Shown: piece by piece, positions 2,461 to 12,463 of the stretch
Layout: each line of letters begins with the position of its first letter
Numbering within the stretch: the stretch's first letter is position 1
Assembly (NCBI GenBank): GCA_021792075.1
Contig: JAJYVK010000005.1
Coordinates: forward strand, 1-15,482
Length of the DNA stretch: 15,482 nucleotides
Direction of reading: 5' to 3'
Source: Actinomycetes bacterium
GTDB taxonomy: Bacteria > Actinomycetota > Acidimicrobiia > Acidimicrobiales > Acidimicrobiaceae
Translations under genes and position numbers: made by a program
Notes under the pieces: model-generated
What the model was told of the DNA's origin: nothing
Seen by the model: the letters and a program-made list of their open reading frames with translations, nothing else
Database searches by the model: none

Positions 2461-3651
2461 GTGAAAAGCGCGGAAAACACGGATTTTGAGAAGAAGGTGT
2501 CACTGGCGCTCGAGAACGTTATCGACCCTGAACTTGGCGACAACATCGTTTCTTTGGGTATGTACCTTGGTTCAAGCCTGGATAACGACGGTACGGCCAC
2601 AATAAAGATCGGTTTGACCGCCGTTGGTTGCCCCTTGCGCTCTCAAATCAAGAGAGACATCGAGCAAGCGCTTGGCCACATCAAAGAGATCCGCCGGACG
2701 GTGGTCGAAATGGGTGAATTGACCAGAGAGCAGAAAAAGCGGCTAATGGACACCGCGCGCAGGAACGCGCAGAAGGAGTCTCCACAGGTCGAGATTCCTC
2801 AATCCGCCCGGATAATCGCAATCTCCTCCGGCAAGGGTGGTGTCGGCAAATCCTCGCTGACTGCGAATCTCGCAGCCGCAATCGCCTCCCAGGGTTTGAC
2901 GGTTGGACTGCTCGATGCCGACATCTGGGGCTTCTCTCTGCCACGGATGCTTGGAGTATCCGGCAAGATCGAAGCCGAGGGAACCAAGGATTCCTGGAGG
3001 ATGTCTCCAATACGTAAGCAAATCGGAAGCGGGGAACTCCAGATCATCTCCATGGGCTTTTTGGCGCAGGGAGACTCTGATGCAATCATGTGGCGCGGGC
3101 TGATGCTTTCACGCGCGCTCCAGCACTTCATTGAGAATGTCGCATGGTCAAAGGTGGATTACCTGCTGATCGACATGCCTCCCGGAACCGGCGACATCCA
3201 GATGGCTCTTTCCAGAATGCTTCCCAGAACGGAGATGATAATCGTTACTACTCCGGCGAAGGGAGCTTCCGTGGTCGCCTCCCGCATGGGAGACATGGCC
3301 AAAAAAGGCCATCTCCGCATCGCTGGAGTTATAGAGAACATGTCCGGATTCACGTGCGACCATGGTGAACAGTATTCGCTGTTCGGTTCAGGTGGCGGAC
3401 AAGAGGTCGCCGATCAGCTAGGGACATCGCTGATCGCCAAGATTCCATTCACTCCCTCGATTGCACGGCTTGGCGACATCGGTTTGACCCTGATGGAGGC
3501 AGAGATGCTCCACCAGCACGAGAGGCAGGCTCGCGATGCGATAATCCAGCTGGCTCACGATATCATAACGAAGATTGCGCCGAACTATGAAGTACAGAGC
3601 TGCACCGCAAGGATGTTCGATGCGATAAACGCAGCCTTAGAGGCTCGTTAA
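2461..3651 (+). CDS. mrp: Mrp/ApbC-type Fe-S carrier P-loop ATPase
   Basis: A 396-residue cytosolic protein. An N-terminal MIP18/DUF59 domain (about 8-85, with VIDPELGDNIVSLG) is followed by a MinD-like P-loop domain (about 116-345). The deviant Walker A, SGKGGVGKSS, is at 123-132; DADIWGFSLPRML is at 152-164, and DMPPGTGD at 238-245. Mrp proteins bind and transfer Fe-S clusters. The usual CPxC cluster motif after ENMS is reduced here to one cysteine (C299 in FTCDHGEQYS), a form I believe is common in actinobacterial Mrp. The start is GTG 2461, at the beginning of the MIP18 domain, probably leaderless. The gene sits head to head with the A-type carrier, which supports a joint Fe-S role, and its last 15 bp overlap the 3' end of the opposing NUDIX gene. 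Confidence 0.93.
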   Translation: MKSAENTDFEKKVSLALENVIDPELGDNIVSLGMYLGSSLDNDGTATIKIGLTAVGCPLRSQIKRDIEQALGHIKEIRRTVVEMGELTREQKKRLMDTARRNAQKESPQVEIPQSARIIAISSGKGGVGKSSLTANLAAAIASQGLTVGLLDADIWGFSLPRMLGVSGKIEAEGTKDSWRMSPIRKQIGSGELQIISMGFLAQGDSDAIMWRGLMLSRALQHFIENVAWSKVDYLLIDMPPGTGDIQMALSRMLPRTEMIIVTTPAKGASVVASRMGDMAKKGHLRIAGVIENMSGFTCDHGEQYSLFGSGGGQEVADQLGTSLIAKIPFTPSIARLGDIGLTLMEAEMLHQHERQARDAIIQLAHDIITKIAPNYEVQSCTARMFDAINAALEAR

Positions 3652-4460: not shown

Positions 4461-5753
4461 ATGCAATATATTGCTCGGGCTGGGGGTAATCTTGGCCTGG
4501 TGAGACCTCCTTCTGTAGATTCACTTGCGCACTCTCTCAAATCTTCCGGACTGCCCCACCAGCTTCGCGTAGAGGCTGCTCGGCGCTCGATTGCCAACAA
4601 CGACCATGGGAATGCAGCTCGATATGCGAAAGAGATTTCAGACGATCTCCTTCGCCCGGTGATCAATGGCACCGGAGTGATAATTCACACCAACCTGGGC
4701 CGCTCACCTCTCCGCCAGGAAAACTCTCAGCGGGGCTCCTACCGCTACTCCAATCTCGAGATCGACCTAAAGAGTGGGAAAAGGGGCTCTCGAGACAAGA
4801 GAGTCGGATCGCTTCTGGCCGGGTACATCGGAGCAGAGTCAGCCATCATCGTGAACAACGGGGCTGCGGCAATCTTTCTGGTGCTTGCCGCCCACGCGTT
4901 GGGCAGCAGCGTGATCATCTCCAGGGGGGAACTCGTGGAGATCGGCGGAGGATTTCGAATACCCGAGGTTCTGGCATCGGCAGGAGCTCGGCTGGTCGAG
5001 GTTGGAACCACGAACAAGACGCGGCTCAAAGACTATGAGACTGCTGCGAAAGACCCTGAAGCGGCACTGATACTCAAGGTTCACAGCTCGAACTACCAAT
5101 TGACTGGCTTCGTCGAGAGCGTTCCTGTCAGCCAATTAGGATCGCTCGGAATACCGGTTGTATTTGACATTGGGTCAGGTCTGCTCGACGAGACAGCGCC
5201 CTGGATGGGATGGCCAAAGCCTTCTTGGCTCAAAGATGAGCCTGGGGCGAAACAGAGCCTAGCCAACGGCGCTGATCTGGTGACATTTTCCGGCGACAAG
5301 CTATTGGGTGGCCCCCAAGCTGGCATCATCGCTGGAAGGAGAGAGATGGTCGAGATCTGCGCCCGGCATCCTCTCTACCGAGCGCTGCGTCCGGGCAACC
5401 TCGTACTCGAGGCGATGGGTACAACACTCTTCGCCTACCTGGACAACAGAGCCGACGAGCTTCCACTATGGCGTATGGCCAAGCTCAAAGTCGAAGAGCT
5501 CAAGACTCGGGCCGAGAGGATTGGGATCGGTCGACCGACTCCGCTCAGAGCAGCCATTGGGGGTGGCTCACTTCCGGGACAGGAGCTAGATTCGTTCGGC
5601 ATCGCACTTACAGGCGACCTTACCGCCAAGCTTCGCCAGCTTGAAATACCAGTGCTGGCAAGAATGGAGGGATCAGAAACCGTGATCGATCTAAGGACCG
5701 TCGATCCCAACGACGACGATTACCTGAGAAGCTCTATCCAATCGCTGACCTAG
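4461..5753 (+). CDS. selA: L-seryl-tRNA(Sec) selenium transferase SelA
   Basis: A PLP enzyme that converts Ser-tRNA(Sec) to Sec-tRNA(Sec) with selenophosphate. The 430-residue length is typical. The N-terminal PSVDSL segment (about 17-22) and the VINGTGVIIHTNLGRSPL block (about 68-85) are SelA hallmarks. The PLP-binding lysine is K280, in FSGDKLLGGPQAG. The start is taken as ATG 4461; GTG 4500, just before the conserved RPPSVDSL region, is a possible alternative and would lengthen the intergenic region. The gene is followed after 46 bp by selB, so they form an operon. No selD or tRNA-Sec is visible in the window. Confidence 0.95.
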   Translation: MQYIARAGGNLGLVRPPSVDSLAHSLKSSGLPHQLRVEAARRSIANNDHGNAARYAKEISDDLLRPVINGTGVIIHTNLGRSPLRQENSQRGSYRYSNLEIDLKSGKRGSRDKRVGSLLAGYIGAESAIIVNNGAAAIFLVLAAHALGSSVIISRGELVEIGGGFRIPEVLASAGARLVEVGTTNKTRLKDYETAAKDPEAALILKVHSSNYQLTGFVESVPVSQLGSLGIPVVFDIGSGLLDETAPWMGWPKPSWLKDEPGAKQSLANGADLVTFSGDKLLGGPQAGIIAGRREMVEICARHPLYRALRPGNLVLEAMGTTLFAYLDNRADELPLWRMAKLKVEELKTRAERIGIGRPTPLRAAIGGGSLPGQELDSFGIALTGDLTAKLRQLEIPVLARMEGSETVIDLRTVDPNDDDYLRSSIQSLT

Positions 5754-5799: not shown

Positions 5800-7611
5800 A
5801 TGCATGTACTTTCAACAGCCGGACATGTCGACCATGGCAAGTCATCTCTGATACTTGCCCTTACGGGAACGGATCCAGACCGATGGAAAGAGGAGAAAGA
5901 GCGCGGGCTCACGATAGATCTTGGTTTCGCACATCTAAGGCTTCCTTCCGGTCAGGAGCTGTCACTTGTCGATGTACCTGGCCACATTCGCTTCATCAAG
6001 AACATGCTTGCCGGGGTGGGAGCAATCGATGGTGCAATTTTCGTGGTGGCTGCGAACGAGGTATGGAAGCCGCAGAGTGAGGAGCATCTGCGGATACTCG
6101 ATCTGCTCGGGACCAAGACCGGAATAATCGTCATCACAAAGGCCGATCTTGTAGACGAAGAGTGGCTTGAACTGGCACGAATGGAGATCGGGGAACATGT
6201 CGCCGGAAGCTTTCTGGAAAAAGCACCCGTTATTGCCGTCGACTCTCTCTCCAGGCGCGGCCTCGACCAGCTGATGGTTGAGATAGAAAAACTTTTGGCC
6301 TCCACTCCGAATGCCGCCAACCTGAACCGACCGAGGCTATGGATCGACAGGGTATTTTCCTCGCGTGGCTCGGGAACGGTGGTGACCGGTACCCTAACTG
6401 GAGGAGATGTCCGACTGGACCAGGAGCTCGCAATCTTTCACTCCTCAGGCAGATCCTGGAATGTCATGGTCTCCAATTTAACCAAGGAGTTCTTTGAGGA
6501 TCTCGGAGATACCAGCTCCAAGGTAAGGGTTCGTAGCCTAGAGTCTCATGGAGCCAAGCTGAGCATGGCGGACCCTGGAAGAAGACTGGCATTGAATCTC
6601 CTCGGAGTATCCCCCAACCAGGTTTCTCGCGGGGACGTGCTGATCGATCCCTCCCAATGGTGTGCAACATCAACCTTCGACGCCACAATCAAGGTCTTGC
6701 CAAACCTCTCCCACGGCATCACGAAGAAGGGCGCTTACGCGATTTATGTTGGCTCTGGAGACTTCCCCGCAGGTATAAATGTCTTGGGAAAGGGTGAACT
6801 CAAATCCGGAGAGGTCGGAGCCATTCGAGTTCATTTGAACTCCGTAGTCCCTTTGACCAAAGGAGACCGCTTCATCCTGAGAGAGTTGGGGCGCAGGGAG
6901 ACGGTCGCCGGAGGAGAAGTCACAAACGTGAACCCTCTCACTCCTGTGAGCAAGCCTGCCCCGCCCTTCGACATCATGCAGATCGTGAAAGAACGCGGCT
7001 TTATCGACGCCAGGCTTCTTTACAAGATGACGGGCAAGAACGTTTCACCAAATGCAGGCGAGCGATACGTCATCTCCGAATCGCTTGAAACTGAGATCAC
7101 TCGTGAGCTGACGGAAAGGGCCGTGAACGCTGGCGAACTTGGTTTCGACATCTCGGAGCTGGATGAGATCTCGAGAGCAGTTCTCCAAGGCATCCAAGAT
7201 CTCACCGTCGACTCCTCAAGGGTCTACAGTTCCAGGTTCGGCCAGATGAGGGACACGCTAAGCAAACATCCCTTCATCAAGGAGTTGGAAAGTTCGCTGT
7301 TCAAGCCGCCGGCGCCTGACGGAGTGAACCGACAGCAGTTGCGGGAGCTCGTCAGACAGGGACTCGTGATCGATTGTGAGGGAATCTATTACTCACCCCT
7401 CGCACTCTCTAGGGCAAAAGAAGTGATCTGGGAACTGTCCCTGACAGAGCAGAACGGATTCACCGTATCCCAGCTCAGGGACAAGCTTGACACCTCACGA
7501 AAATACCTCCTAGCTCTTGTCGGCTACCTGGACACGCATGGATTCACCAGAAGAGCCGGTGACCTCCGACGACCGGGCCCTGCACTTGTGAGGGAGTTCA
7601 GCAAGAGCTAG
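5800..7611 (+). CDS. selB: Selenocysteine-specific elongation factor SelB
   Basis: A GTPase that carries Sec-tRNA(Sec) to the ribosome at UGA codons marked by a SECIS hairpin. The 603-residue length matches bacterial SelB. G1 is GHVDHGKS at 8-15, followed by [10 protein letters not shown] (switch region, 34-43), DVPGH at 58-62 (G3) and TKAD at 113-116 (G4). EF-Tu-like beta-barrel domains follow (about 175-375, with [13 protein letters not shown]). The C-terminal part (about 390-600) is predicted to hold winged helices that bind the [33 protein letters not shown] near the end fits WH4. A GGAG-type Shine-Dalgarno precedes ATG 5800. The gene follows selA closely. Its last 14 bp overlap the 3' end of the opposing hydrolase gene. 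Confidence 0.95.
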
Positions 7612-8401: not shown

Positions 8402-8571
8402 TTTAGCCAGTAACGACCTCCGCGAAAGATGCTCCACACAATGAAAGCGAAGTCACAACCAAACACGAATACCTTCGATGCTAGGATGCTGGTAGTTTTC
8501 TTGCTGGACTGTTGGTCGTCACTCTGACTAACATGCCTAAATATTGGAGTCATATTCACGGCGGAGGATCG

Positions 8572-9420
8572 ATGGCAAAACAAAAGAAGAAGGCGGCATC
8601 TGCACAACGTGGGCAGATCATAACCTTGATATCGATCGTTGTCGTGCTCCTTGTCGTCGCAGCGCTGATCCTGGTCAAACTCAATAAGTCCTCCTCTAGC
8701 AAGGGAACAAGCTCAACTGTTGCTCCATCCGATGTGGTCGCAGCTACGACGGGAGTGCCGGAAAGCGCCTTCGCTGCGATAGGCTACGACTCCGCCTTGC
8801 CGAAGCCTTCTTCGATCAAAGAGACATCGTCTCTCACAAAGAGCGGCCTACCGGAGGTGCTGTACATGGGAGCCGATTACTGCCCTTATTGCGCCGCGCA
8901 GAGGTGGGCCATCGTCAGCGCCTTGTCTAGATTCGGAAGCTTTCAGAAACTGGGCGCAACCTCCTCCGGAGCCAATGACGTCTATCCAAATACACAGACG
9001 TTCAGTTTCTACGGTTCGAGCTACAGCTCAAAATATATTGCCTTCGAGGGTGTGGAAATGCAGACCAACATAGCATCAAACGGAAGCTACACCACGCTGC
9101 AAACTCCGACAACGGCGCAGAACAATCTGCTTACCACCTGGGACAAGCCGCCATATACACCAACCGCTGACGGCATTCCTTTCGTCGACTTTGCCAACAA
9201 GTATGTGCTCGGTGGAGCGAGCTACAACCCTGGCCTCCTTGCGGGACTCTCTTTGCAGACAATCGCCGGGAGCCTGGCACAACCCACCTCAGCGCCGGCC
9301 AAGGCAATCATCGGAACTGCCAACATCATCACCGCAACCGTCTGCAAGATCGACAACAACCAGCCATCCAATGTCTGCAACCTCGGCTATATCCAGCAGA
9401 TCGAAAAGGCACTCAAGTAG
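8572..9420 (+). CDS. Membrane-anchored thiol oxidoreductase, DUF929-like, with CPYC
   Basis: A 282-residue protein with a short Lys-rich cytoplasmic N-terminus, one hydrophobic segment (about 15-37, an anchor rather than a cleaved signal), a Ser/Thr-rich linker, and a thioredoxin-like domain. MGADYCPYCAAQRW contains the active-site pair C104-x-x-C107. Two more cysteines, C258 and C269, near the C-terminus may form a structural disulfide. The order of motifs matches the DUF929 family seen in archaea and actinobacteria. ATG 8572 follows a clear GGAGG at 4-5 nt, so the open frame upstream to 8512 is not used. It is followed by a VKOR gene, which suggests that VKOR re-oxidises the CPYC pair. Oxidase and isomerase roles cannot be distinguished from sequence. 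Confidence 0.82.
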   Translation: MAKQKKKAASAQRGQIITLISIVVVLLVVAALILVKLNKSSSSKGTSSTVAPSDVVAATTGVPESAFAAIGYDSALPKPSSIKETSSLTKSGLPEVLYMGADYCPYCAAQRWAIVSALSRFGSFQKLGATSSGANDVYPNTQTFSFYGSSYSSKYIAFEGVEMQTNIASNGSYTTLQTPTTAQNNLLTTWDKPPYTPTADGIPFVDFANKYVLGGASYNPGLLAGLSLQTIAGSLAQPTSAPAKAIIGTANIITATVCKIDNNQPSNVCNLGYIQQIEKALK

Positions 9421-9519: not shown

Positions 9520-9987
9520 ATGGAAATGATTGAGGACACCAGATCCAACTCGATGACGCCGGTAAGGTACTTCTGCTTCGGACTCAGCCTGGTTGGAATT
9601 CCGATCACGATCTATCTGACGATCGCGCACTTCACTTCACCAGGCATTCTCGCCTGCCCCTCGACGGGTGTGATCGACTGTGCCAAGGTGACCAGTTCAG
9701 CACAGTCATACTTTCTCGGAATACCGGTGGCGATCCTGGGTCTGATCTTTTTCGTCTACCTGTCGATCCTCAATTCGCCATGGGGATTCAGGCAAGCGAG
9801 CCTTCGGGTACCGAGATTGGGATCGATGGTCTTGGGTGTAGCTTTTGTCCTCTGGCTGGTGTCTGCCGAGCTTCTTATAATCAACTCGATATGTTTATGG
9901 TGTACCACGGTGCATGTGATAACCGTCATCATCTTCGCCCTCGTGGTCTATGACTATTTCGTGGATTCGCCGGCTCGGATACAGTGA
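9520..9987 (+). CDS. VKOR-family membrane oxidoreductase
   Basis: A 155-residue integral membrane protein with four predicted helices (about 15-37, 65-85, 100-121, 126-145). It has the VKOR cysteine set: loop cysteines C46 and C54 with nearby S59/S60 and a GIPVAILG helix start, and the active-site C125-x-x-C128 (CLWC). Bacterial VKORs, like DsbB, take electrons from a periplasmic thioredoxin-fold partner and pass them to quinone. GGAGAG lies 7 nt before ATG 9520. The adjacent CPYC protein upstream (99-bp gap, no terminator) is the obvious redox partner. Here the enzyme is not fused to a thioredoxin domain, unlike some bacterial VKORs. Confidence 0.92.
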   Translation: MEMIEDTRSNSMTPVRYFCFGLSLVGIPITIYLTIAHFTSPGILACPSTGVIDCAKVTSSAQSYFLGIPVAILGLIFFVYLSILNSPWGFRQASLRVPRLGSMVLGVAFVLWLVSAELLIINSICLWCTTVHVITVIIFALVVYDYFVDSPARIQ

Positions 9988-10012: not shown

Positions 10013-10018
10013 TATACT
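10013..10018 (+). promoter_or_regulatory. Candidate -10 for the ArsA-family operon
   Basis: TATACT lies 23 nt upstream of the TTG start at 10042 and would give a short leader carrying the GGAG Shine-Dalgarno (10031-10034). No convincing -35 is present in the VKOR 3' end, so read-through from upstream is equally possible. Confidence 0.35.
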
Positions 10019-10041: not shown

Positions 10042-10944
10042 TTGCCAAATTCGGCCAATTTAGGTCACAAAAAGAAGGTCTTTGACCTATTTGCCCAGAA
10101 GGTCCTTGTCGTTGTGGGAAAGGGCGGCACTGGCAGGACAACGGTCGCCAGAGTTCTAGCAGAACTTGGCACAAAGACTGGAAGGCGCGTGGCAGTAATT
10201 GCCGGGACGTCAGGAACCCACTTTCTGGCCAAGGAAGACCCGCTATTGAGCTTCAGCTCCCTTGAGCCAGGCCAGGTACTGATTAGCTACCTGTACGAGC
10301 ACGGTCTTGGCCAGCTTGGGAAACGCCTTTCATCGACAGGATTGGCCAGCATAATCTCGACAGCCATACCCGGAATCGCCGACCTTCTGGTGCTTGCAAA
10401 GATCAAGCAGATGGAGAGATCCGACGCCGCAGACTTGATCATTTTCGATGCGCCGGCCTCCGGACACTTTCTTCGACTGATTGCGACCCCAAAAGGGCTG
10501 GCCGATATCGCTGCTGCCGGCCCACTGCGGAAGCAATCCAGAGAGGTCCTCGAAATGCTCGACGACCCAACTCGTCTCGGGGTGGCCTTCGTTACCATCG
10601 CTGAGGAGACTCCGGTCAAAGAGAGCATCGAGACCATGAAGCAGCTCAAAAAGAGCTCCGGCATCGTACCCTGTGCACTATTCATCAACTCCGTGCTTCC
10701 CTCGATACCTGGCAATGAGAAGGTTCAAGATCTCTCTTTTCTCGAATCCACGTCCCCTTACTACCAAGCAGCAAAGTACATGAGAACTCGCTCACAGTCG
10801 CAAAAGCACTACGAGGCGATGGCTGCAAAGGCGTTCGGACTCAAGCCAATAGAAGTTCCTCTAGTGCCCACGGTCGAACTCAGCGAGGATGACATCACGT
10901 ACTTGGCTGACATCGTCGAACTCCAGATTCGGTCCAAGAAATGA
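10042..10944 (+). CDS. ArsA/Get3-family ATPase, subunit A, altered P-loop
   Basis: A 300-residue cytosolic SIMIBI-class ATPase. The Walker A region reads GKGGTGRTT (26-34): the signature Lys is K27, but the P-loop Lys is replaced by R32 (codon AGG). The switch region after the second strand is VIAGTSGTHFLAKE, without the usual DPA motif or catalytic Asp. The switch II block DAPASGHFLRLIATP keeps the family pattern (DxxxxGHxLRL). TTG 10042 is chosen because GGAG lies 7 nt upstream; the frame also has TTG 10018. Its stop overlaps the next ATG by 4 bp (ATGA). The pair resembles the conserved actinobacterial tandem represented by M. tuberculosis Rv3679/Rv3680. It lacks arsenite-binding context, so an arsenic pump role is unlikely. 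Confidence 0.85.
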   Translation: MPNSANLGHKKKVFDLFAQKVLVVVGKGGTGRTTVARVLAELGTKTGRRVAVIAGTSGTHFLAKEDPLLSFSSLEPGQVLISYLYEHGLGQLGKRLSSTGLASIISTAIPGIADLLVLAKIKQMERSDAADLIIFDAPASGHFLRLIATPKGLADIAAAGPLRKQSREVLEMLDDPTRLGVAFVTIAEETPVKESIETMKQLKKSSGIVPCALFINSVLPSIPGNEKVQDLSFLESTSPYYQAAKYMRTRSQSQKHYEAMAAKAFGLKPIEVPLVPTVELSEDDITYLADIVELQIRSKK

Positions 10945-12020
10945 GCCTCGACATACTTGAAAGATCCAAAGTGATCGTCTGTCTCGGTACCGGAGGTGTC
11001 GGTAAGACAACCACCGCAGCCGCACTCGGATATATGGCCGCCAAGGCAGGGAGACACGTATGCGTGGTCACCATCGATCCCGCCAAGCGCTTGGCCGACG
11101 CAATGGGCATTGCTGAGCTCGCCAACACTCCAAAAAAGATCGATACCGCGCCCGAGTTCGACCTCTGGGCGGTGATGCTCGATCCCAACTCAACCTTTGA
11201 CGAGCTGGTGCAGAAGTTCGCCACCTCGCCAGAACAGGTCGAGAAGATCTTTCATAACACTATCTACCAAAACCTTACCGAGAACCTATCCGGAACTCAG
11301 GAGTACATGGCTATGGAGAAGCTTCACGAACTTGCGTCAGACCCCCGTTTCGACCTCCTCGTCGTGGACACCCCTCCAGCAAGGAATGCAATCGAATTCC
11401 TCAATGCTCCCAAACGCTTAGTCGGCTTTTTGGAAAACCGAATGTTTCGGCTGCTCATATCCCCATCACAAAGTGTCTTTCGCCCGGTGACTGTGGCGAC
11501 ACGGTTACTACTAAGAACAATTTCAAAAGTAGTGGGAACACAGGTCGTATCCGACGCGGTCGAGTTCTTCCAGGCATTTGAAGGGATGGAGGCCGGCTTC
11601 AAGAAGCGGGCAGCCGAAGTTCAGGATCTGCTCTCGCAAGACTCGACCTCATTTGTCCTGGTGACAGGTACCCACAAGGACACCATCGATGAAGCGCTCT
11701 ACTTCGCATCGCGGCTGGACGAGTACGAGCTTGACGTCGACATGATCATTTCCAACAGGGTCACTCCGGAATTCGGCAACGAACTTGAAGATAGCCGGAT
11801 CGAAGTTCCCAAAGATATCCGGGAAAACCTCGAATATCTAATCCGCCTTCGGTCAGCCGAGCTCGAACAACTATCTAGACTCTCGGTAATAGTTGGAAAG
11901 GATAAGCATATCCTGGTCCCTCTGCTGCCTCACGACATCGGGTCGCTTAGCGAAATCCAAGAGATCGGGGAGGTTCTTGTGGATTCGAGATCGACATTTG
12001 AAAACTCAGTTTCTCCGTGA
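10941..12020 (+). CDS. ArsA/Get3-family ATPase, subunit B
   Basis: A 359-residue partner of the preceding ATPase. Walker A reads GTGGVGKTT (16-24): the P-loop Lys K22 is present, but the inter-subunit signature Lys position is T17. Switch I is intact, with IDPAKRLAD containing D46 and the likely catalytic D53. Switch II is DTPPARNAIEFLNAPKRL, as in the Rv3680-like group. There is no CxxC zinc motif or long hydrophobic groove segment that I can recognise as in eukaryotic Get3. The ATGA overlap with the upstream stop indicates tight translational coupling and a likely heteromeric complex. The cargo is unknown; membrane-protein targeting or stress functions have been suggested for this group. 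Confidence 0.88.
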   Translation: MSLDILERSKVIVCLGTGGVGKTTTAAALGYMAAKAGRHVCVVTIDPAKRLADAMGIAELANTPKKIDTAPEFDLWAVMLDPNSTFDELVQKFATSPEQVEKIFHNTIYQNLTENLSGTQEYMAMEKLHELASDPRFDLLVVDTPPARNAIEFLNAPKRLVGFLENRMFRLLISPSQSVFRPVTVATRLLLRTISKVVGTQVVSDAVEFFQAFEGMEAGFKKRAAEVQDLLSQDSTSFVLVTGTHKDTIDEALYFASRLDEYELDVDMIISNRVTPEFGNELEDSRIEVPKDIRENLEYLIRLRSAELEQLSRLSVIVGKDKHILVPLLPHDIGSLSEIQEIGEVLVDSRSTFENSVSP

Positions 12021-12058: not shown

Positions 12059-12463
12059 GTGCCATTGATATACATAGTTTCTGACTCGCAAAACCTGAAG
12101 AACTTGGTCAGCTCGGCAGTAGCAGGACCAAAGAACGAGCTTGTGGAACTCTCATCGGGCAACGAGCTCATGAAGTTGCTCCAAGAGGAGAGCCCCGACC
12201 TCGTGATACTCGATCTTCAGATCTCGAATATGGGAGCAACCGCCATAACGCTGGAAATCAGGCTGGGCGAAAAAGCCAAGAGAATCGACCCGACAAAAAT
12301 ACTGGTACTTCTCGACAGAAGGGCCGATGTATTCATGACCCGGCGCTCCGGTGCTGATGGCTTCATCATCAAGCCTCTGGACTCGCTGAAAATCAAGAGA
12401 GCGGTAAACGAGATGCTAAGCTCCGGCCGGTTCGAAGACACCGCCTTTGCACCAGCCAACTGA
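12059..12463 (+). CDS. Stand-alone response-regulator receiver protein
   Basis: A 134-residue single receiver domain without output domain. The phospho-acceptor Asp is D52 (LVILDLQIS) and the conserved Lys is K105 (GFIIKPLD). Only one acidic residue (D9, in IVSDSQ) is clear at the end of the first strand, where most receivers have two, and the conserved Thr/Ser of the fourth strand appears to be missing (ILVLLDRRAD). Phosphorylation is possible but the switch may be atypical. GTG 12059 is the only start fitting the first strand; the TAGG upstream is a weak Shine-Dalgarno. It follows the ATPase pair by 38 bp and may be cotranscribed with it. No histidine kinase is in the window. Confidence 0.82.
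   Translation: MPLIYIVSDSQNLKNLVSSAVAGPKNELVELSSGNELMKLLQEESPDLVILDLQISNMGATAITLEIRLGEKAKRIDPTKILVLLDRRADVFMTRRSGADGFIIKPLDSLKIKRAVNEMLSSGRFEDTAFAPAN

Follow-up and report, generated by a model that had tools for sequence, protein, structure and literature searches.

Sequence Evidence for a Probable One-Site A:B Heterodimer Encoded by a Divergent BagA/BagB-Like Gene Pair in an Acidimicrobial Genome

Introduction

The closest solved relatives of the gene pair described here are BagA and BagB of Mycobacterium tuberculosis (Rv3679/Rv3680; PDB 6bs3, 6bs4, and 6bs5), which represent the same subunit types and of which 6bs3, the closest solved pair, is an A/B co-crystal. In alignments, BagA carries GKGGTGKST with EVEG in the place of the DPA motif, and BagB carries GAGGVGKTT together with TIDPA. 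Whitaker 2020 is reported to have found that the M. tuberculosis pair needs intact ATP-binding motifs in both subunits to function. For Get3, we take the water-positioning aspartate of switch I to be the Asp of the DPA motif, D57 in yeast Get3, and the D57N mutant is blocked in hydrolysis. The title of PDB entry 9ns5 names Get3(D57N) as the protein used for an ATP-bound structure.

According to PMC10248533, the signature lysine of Get3 acts in trans, the switch-I aspartate places the attacking water, and an asparagine of strand beta7 has an adenine-binding role. The same paper reports that NosGet3d, which has a P-loop arginine and a switch-I glutamate, hydrolyses ATP with a kcat of 0.28 per min, where yeast Get3 assayed alongside reached 2.7 (PMC10248533). 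A literature search by title and abstract returned nothing on the pair; the content of Hu 2019 and Whitaker 2020 lay outside that search.

Here, we analysed two adjacent genes of this fold, subunits A and B, in a window, that is, the whole stretch of 15,482 nucleotides from contig JAJYVK010000005.1 of an Acidimicrobiaceae genome, and compared them with pairs from other bacteria.

Materials and Methods

Loci were drawn from (a) 60 relatives, for which the search supplied 30 loci directly and a further 40 stretches were fetched by position, together covering part of the list; (b) 296 genomes sampled from the phylum, 127 of them with matches, as 30 loci and 100 hand-picked stretches; (c) 80 named loci in genome_contigs, the best 80 of at least 319 confirmed relatives; (d1) a sample from the phylum to which the Planctomycetota MAG L185 belongs, 9 of its 149 genomes having matches; and (d2) a sample from the phylum of the Myxococcus L176, 107 of its 117 genomes having matches, as 30 loci supplied by the search and 20 stretches selected from a longer list. 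A search with two profiles and an adjacency rule yielded 326 distinct A-B pairs, at least one of which, L003, duplicates another in truncated form; the A P-loop is unreadable in four pairs.

Eight B genes without an adjacent A under this rule were excluded. They comprise two cut by contig ends (L249, L264), one fusion (L189), one (L155) whose A gene sits some 3.6 kb upstream of it, and four further entries, L158 and L292 (one locus), L340, and L345. The three genomes of L158, L340, and L345 have an A-like gene with GKGG elsewhere, and two of them also carry a complete adjacent pair; in G355 the A-like gene is split over two frames.

The source genome also carries a paralogous pair, located on contig C528, in which A reads GKGGVGKSS and B reads GPGGVGKTT plus TVDPA. 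Pairs of the window type are referred to as class 1 and those of the C528 type as class 2. Searching the 60 relatives with A gave matches in 59, and 41 of the 60 had two or three, although a few of these multiple matches were two-domain ArsA proteins. A further divergent pair, with Ser at the A P-loop lysine position, occurs in some genomes of the order (L061, L193, L194).

For the folding of the L189 fusion, we used an alignment of the fusions with A rows (A6), so that the B half of the fusion model rests on six rows; two alignments combining A and B rows (A3, A5) set A rows against the B half and were left out of the folding.

Results

Gene Pair and Motifs

All features of the pair lie on the + strand. 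Subunit A (10042..10944) encodes a BagA-like Get3/ArsA-family protein of 300 aa, and subunit B (10941..12020) a BagB-like one of 359 aa. Translation of A from TTG 10042 includes VVVGKGGTGRTT, which contains K27 and R32; a second in-frame TTG lies at 10018. The nucleotide-site motif of A is GKGGTGRTT, in which the signature (intradimeric) lysine K27 (10120..10122) is present and R32 (10135..10137) replaces the P-loop lysine. At the expected place of DPA, A reads AVIAGTSGT, and its switch I (AGTSGT, 10201..10218) has neither DPA nor an acidic residue and is two residues shorter than in related A's in the alignments. A retains T33 in the P-loop, the switch-II aspartate D136 (10447..10449), and N216 (10687..10689), a candidate adenine-binding asparagine that by position would be the equivalent of the strand beta7 asparagine of Get3. 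Translation of B from ATG 10941 includes CLGTGGVGKTT, where T17 (10989..10991) replaces the signature lysine and K22 (11004..11006) is the P-loop lysine; TIDPA follows with D46 (11076..11078), by homology the catalytic-water aspartate, then D53, and the switch-II aspartate D143 (11367..11369).

Translation confirmed the genes and motifs that an earlier note on this DNA had listed (K27, R32, and the missing DPA in A; T17, K22, and D46 in B). The note had also picked B D53 as the likely catalytic aspartate, and we rejected this candidate: D53 lies seven residues past the DPA aspartate, the invariant aspartate in the 326 B's is D46, and the catalytic-water role would belong to D46. The two genes share four bases (ATGA, 10941..10944), combining the TGA stop of A with the ATG start of B, and a 4-base overlap was found in 209 of the 326 pairs when the start codon closest to the A stop was chosen. 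The overlap fits coupled translation, but equal synthesis of the subunits, as had been read from it, does not follow.

The combination of GKGGTGRTT and GTGGVGKTT is identical in all seven genomes of the window genus that have a window-type pair and is therefore not due to chance; the remaining two of the nine genomes in this genus (G002, G003) have the second A type only. Against L011, dN/dS was 0.094 for A and 0.030 for B, most other comparisons being saturated. Both genes are under purifying selection, and these ratios rule out A as a pseudogene or decaying gene.

Family Placement

Both proteins scored above the curated cut-off (24.3 bits) of ArsA_ATPase (PF02374), A with 54 and B with 122.3 bits. 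The best solved relative of A was 6bs3_A (Rv3679), by sequence (E 2.2e-16) as well as by fold (E 1.3e-15), and that of B was 6bs3_B (Rv3680; sequence E 2.2e-75). The fold match of A was obtained with an AlphaFold model built from 53 rows (mean pLDDT 90.4, pTM 0.88). The best NCBIfam models were BagA for A and BagB for B, and both scores fell below the equivalog cut-offs (NF053622, 84.9 versus 400 bits for A; NF053621, 324.3 versus 521 bits for B); these two models may be narrow, as their names point to M. tuberculosis. In a wide sense of BagAB-like, each gene has the matching 6bs3 subunit as its best solved relative, the genes adjoin in the order A to B, A has the signature lysine, and B lacks it and has DPA. 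Judged by these sequence features, the window pair is a divergent BagAB-like relative of Rv3679/Rv3680.

Filing the pair as ArsA or Get3 was ruled out by profile cut-offs and the missing CXXC motif. The Get3/TRC40 model TIGR00345 (cut-off 135 bits) gave 44.6 bits for A and 105.1 for B, and the CXXC zinc motif was found in none of the 326 B's, in two of the 326 A's, and in neither translated window protein. The ArsA model TIGR04291 (cut-off 650 bits) gave 48 and 67.9 bits, respectively, and the subunits are separate genes, not a two-domain chain. In addition, no metal-pump gene was found among the eight window proteins searched with Pfam.

Retention Pattern Across 326 Pairs

The signature position of A was lysine in all 322 readable pairs (four unreadable), and that of B was S in 182, A in 70, P in 54, T in 19, and K in only one, so that 325 of the 326 B's had a residue other than lysine. 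The P-loop lysine position of A was K in 306, R in 13, S in 3, and unreadable in 4, and the adjoining P-loop Ser/Thr is kept. In B, the P-loop lysine and the aspartate of DPA were present in 326/326, and the switch-II aspartate in 325/325 readable sequences. The switch-II aspartate of A was D in 325/326 and the candidate adenine asparagine N in 324/326. Clustering at 90% identity left 291 pairs with the same pattern, the P-loop lysine being lost in 15 of 287 readable A's and in no B of 291 (Fisher p 2e-5, a guide only among related rows); clustering at 70% left 187 pairs, with losses in 10 of 186 readable A's versus 0 of 187 B's.

Switch I is highly variable across A's. The position matching the DPA aspartate was E in 147, D in 83, N in 33, A in 20, G in 10, S in 9, T in 5, R in 4, V in 2, and H in 2, with a gap in 11. 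This variation was checked as a possible alignment artefact by an alignment-free count of the residue 24 from the P-loop lysine, which gave E 145, D 83, and N 33 besides others. Many myxobacterial A's (L307-L356 of the Myxococcota sample) have Asn at this position, as in Get3 D57N. Because 230 of the 326 A's are acidic here (Glu or Asp) and 306 of the 322 readable ones keep the P-loop lysine, most A's do not look degenerate in sequence, except that they would receive no trans lysine and lack DPA.

On a concatenated FastTree, the state of the A P-loop lysine changed at least seven separate times, always in A, and at least seven were likewise counted on a quick IQ-TREE of 101 rows and on trees built from only the A or only the B sequences of these rows; the trees are unrooted, so reading the changes as losses is an interpretation, and IQ-TREE warned of some long branches. 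The window genus represents one such event, with R32 and the shortened switch I in 7/7 pairs. The earlier note had predicted that R/K in A would covary with T/K in B. This was not observed: B is without lysine irrespective of the A residue (K, R, or S), namely in 16 of 16 pairs where A lost its P-loop lysine and in 305 of 306 where A kept it. The covariation fails because the loss in B is family-wide, a reason that strengthens the idea of a composite site. Since the missing B lysine is independent of the A P-loop state, R32 is, on this distribution, a late and local change, and the A/B asymmetry is old and family-wide in the sample.

A pair in which both subunits keep both lysines, which would speak against a composite site, was looked for and found once in 326. 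The exception is a planctomycete pair, L291, which represents the same locus as L185; its branch is a nested one, and a distance of 2.16 separates it from the closest row.

Natural A-B Fusions

Single-chain A-B fusions occur in two lineages, with six distinct proteins that lie outside the 326 pairs. The first lineage comprises L189 (the same locus as L363), L364, and L365, carried by 3 of the 27 genomes in its order, and the second L288 (the same as L357), L358, and L359, carried by all three genomes in its family. These proteins have relatives 46–59% identical to the query chains and therefore are not assembly errors of a single contig. In all six, the A half carries GKGG, and the B half combines a non-lysine signature position with DPA. 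An AlphaFold model of the L189 fusion from 12 rows (pLDDT 80.0, pTM 0.77) matched best the closed MgATP-bound ArsA 9nbw, over 737 columns gaps included and with a target TM of 0.72, versus a lower 0.63 for open ArsA. By its length and score, this match would cover both halves. The model supports an ArsA-like arrangement of A and B without proving it, given that AlphaFold knows ArsA.

Receiver Gene Downstream and Other Window Genes

A stand-alone receiver domain (12059..12463, + strand; Pfam Response_reg, 41.4 bits, cut-off 30.2) follows B and is possibly the third gene of a module. Of 44 distinct Acidimicrobiia class-1 loci for which 700 nt or more of downstream sequence is covered, 41 encode a receiver on the same strand no farther than 1.5 kb past B, starting within 90 nt of B in 24 loci and at 401–1128 nt in 17; the three class-1 loci with enough downstream sequence and no receiver are L055, L086, and L061. 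No receiver follows class-2 B in the 18 Acidimicrobiia loci. Elsewhere it was found after B in 6 of 124 loci, all six from MAGs with no label more precise than actinobacteria of some sort, and it also lies downstream of the fused genes L288, L357, L358, and L359. With the columns taken to be those customary for receivers, an alignment of 71 rows, which include repeat copies of one gene, shows the phospho-acceptor Asp in 71/71, lacks the first Asp of the acidic pair in 71/71, and has Leu in place of Thr/Ser in 68/71, the last two positions being atypical. The association of the receiver with the class-1 pair is new here; the search by title and abstract gave nothing on a receiver link to the pair.

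Just upstream of A, Pfam identified a DUF929 protein (8512-9420) and a VKOR-family protein (9520-9987), which accompany the pair in six of seven window-genus loci, the seventh being cut short, and in several others. A SelA-like gene, named by reading (4461-5753), adjoins a Pfam-identified SelB gene (5800-7611). SelB is also present in 13 other fetched loci (E <1e-20), two of which are the same locus, and no tRNA-Sec was found in the window. The window further contains an Mrp-like ATPase, named by reading (2461-3651), whose GKGGVGKSS keeps both lysines and which serves as a further control.

Discussion

In this study, we compared a divergent BagAB-like pair with 326 adjacent pairs, and the pattern of kept and lost residues makes it probable that such pairs form an obligate heterodimer of A and B, with the Get3/ArsA fold and a single hydrolytic site. 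First, B would bind ATP through its own P-loop (K22), with D46 positioning the attacking water. Second, K27 of A would be supplied in trans to the B site; because B has no signature lysine of its own, A would be its sole source. Third, the A site would face T17 of B and receive no trans lysine, and therefore would be non-hydrolytic. In most relatives the A site nevertheless appears nucleotide-capable, with its P-loop lysine, asparagine, and switch-II aspartate kept, and a nucleotide held there may have a structural or regulatory part; decay of the site seems to have gone further in the window genus, with R32 in place and the acidic residue of switch I gone. The retention pattern, the independent changes, the fusions, purifying selection, and the predicted folds of A and of the fusion are observed. 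From them we infer the heterodimer in the source organism, the trans contact, and hydrolysis by B only.

The composite-site reading of the earlier note is supported in its central part, an A:B heterodimer with one complete site made of the B P-loop, B D46, and the A signature lysine, but not as regards covariation, D53, the dead site, and equal synthesis. This part is well supported by evolution, through near-absolute retention in the sampled pairs, fusions in two lineages, and nearest solved relatives that were co-crystallised as A/B. Physical heterodimer formation by the window pair itself is indirectly backed by the fused relatives and the 6bs3 co-crystal. The one dead site of the note, by comparison, went further than the residues allow, since A keeps N216 along with D136 and T33, and since NosGet3d, a homodimeric relative, still hydrolyses ATP with Arg and Glu (PMC10248533).

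That R32 is neutral drift in one lineage, devoid of mechanistic meaning, we regard as rather unlikely, yet such a reading is largely compatible with the one-site heterodimer, whose composite site does not depend on R32; it fits the scatter of R and S changes over about seven lineages, of which the B pattern is independent, but pure drift sits less easily with the absence of any P-loop lysine loss in the 326 B's, which makes the tolerance specific to A.

The main considerations against a one-site model are the activity of NosGet3d, by which changes in the A site alone do not prove inactivity, the planctomycete pair with all lysines, the P-loop lysine and acidic switch-I residue kept by most A's, and the reported need of the M. 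tuberculosis pair for intact ATP-binding motifs in both subunits (Whitaker 2020). In one alternative, both sites would hydrolyse ATP, with the missing lysine of B and the arginine of A tolerated and the asymmetry tuning rate or partner binding. Although the retention of D136, N216, and the P-loop Ser/Thr in A and the ATPase of NosGet3d with its P-loop Arg and switch-I Glu (PMC10248533) agree with this, we consider it quite improbable: the signature lysine is missing from nearly every B and present in every readable A, window A has no acidic residue at the DPA position, and many myxobacterial A's have there the Asn of the Get3(D57N) named for the ATP-bound structure 9ns5. Least of all do we expect A to have ceased to be an ATPase half and to act as scaffold or regulator only, with GKGG kept for folding or dimer contact, since the decayed nucleotide site of the window genus and the variable switch I that could suggest it are set against a K27 invariant while the nearby P-loop lysine varies, an adenine asparagine kept in nearly all A's, and purifying selection.

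The likeliest class of cellular job for the one-site heterodimer is a Get3-like, nucleotide-driven cycle on a client or partner, perhaps linked to the receiver. More tentatively, and with considerable doubt, Acidimicrobiia class 1 could be a three-part machine in which the stand-alone, atypical receiver encoded nearby sets the cycle of a Get3-like one-site heterodimer, window-genus A would have lost its own site, and A would be becoming a purely trans-activating, arginine-finger-like subunit; if true, phosphorylation would serve as the gating signal for a Get3-type ATPase. The receiver gene offers a handle on the function of the pair in a large, mostly uncultured actinobacterial group. The one-site model would turn a poorly understood, widespread pair into a testable ATPase in which B binds and hydrolyses ATP and A completes the site across the interface, and it would explain why the genes usually adjoin; the natural single-chain versions should purify more simply.

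Compared with known systems, the pair stands nearest to BagA/BagB, with which it shares the asymmetry of signature lysine and DPA. A shares 21% identity with 6bs3_A in the Foldseek alignment, and BagA keeps the P-loop lysine and a switch-I Glu, whereas window A has neither. Get3/TRC40 resembles the pair in fold, intradimeric lysine, and switch motifs; in contrast, it forms a homodimer in which both sites are complete, and it usually has a CXXC zinc site. NosGet3d shows the same P-loop Lys-to-Arg and switch-I Asp-to-Glu changes as some A subunits, but its ATPase was assayed on a single protein, a homodimeric relative, and it lacks the adenine asparagine that A and B keep. ArsA carries two Get3-fold halves per chain, a layout that the natural A-B fusions copy; unlike the A/B pair, it keeps both lysines and DPA in each half, as seen in three two-domain ArsA proteins from window-family genomes that served as a control (L368-L370).
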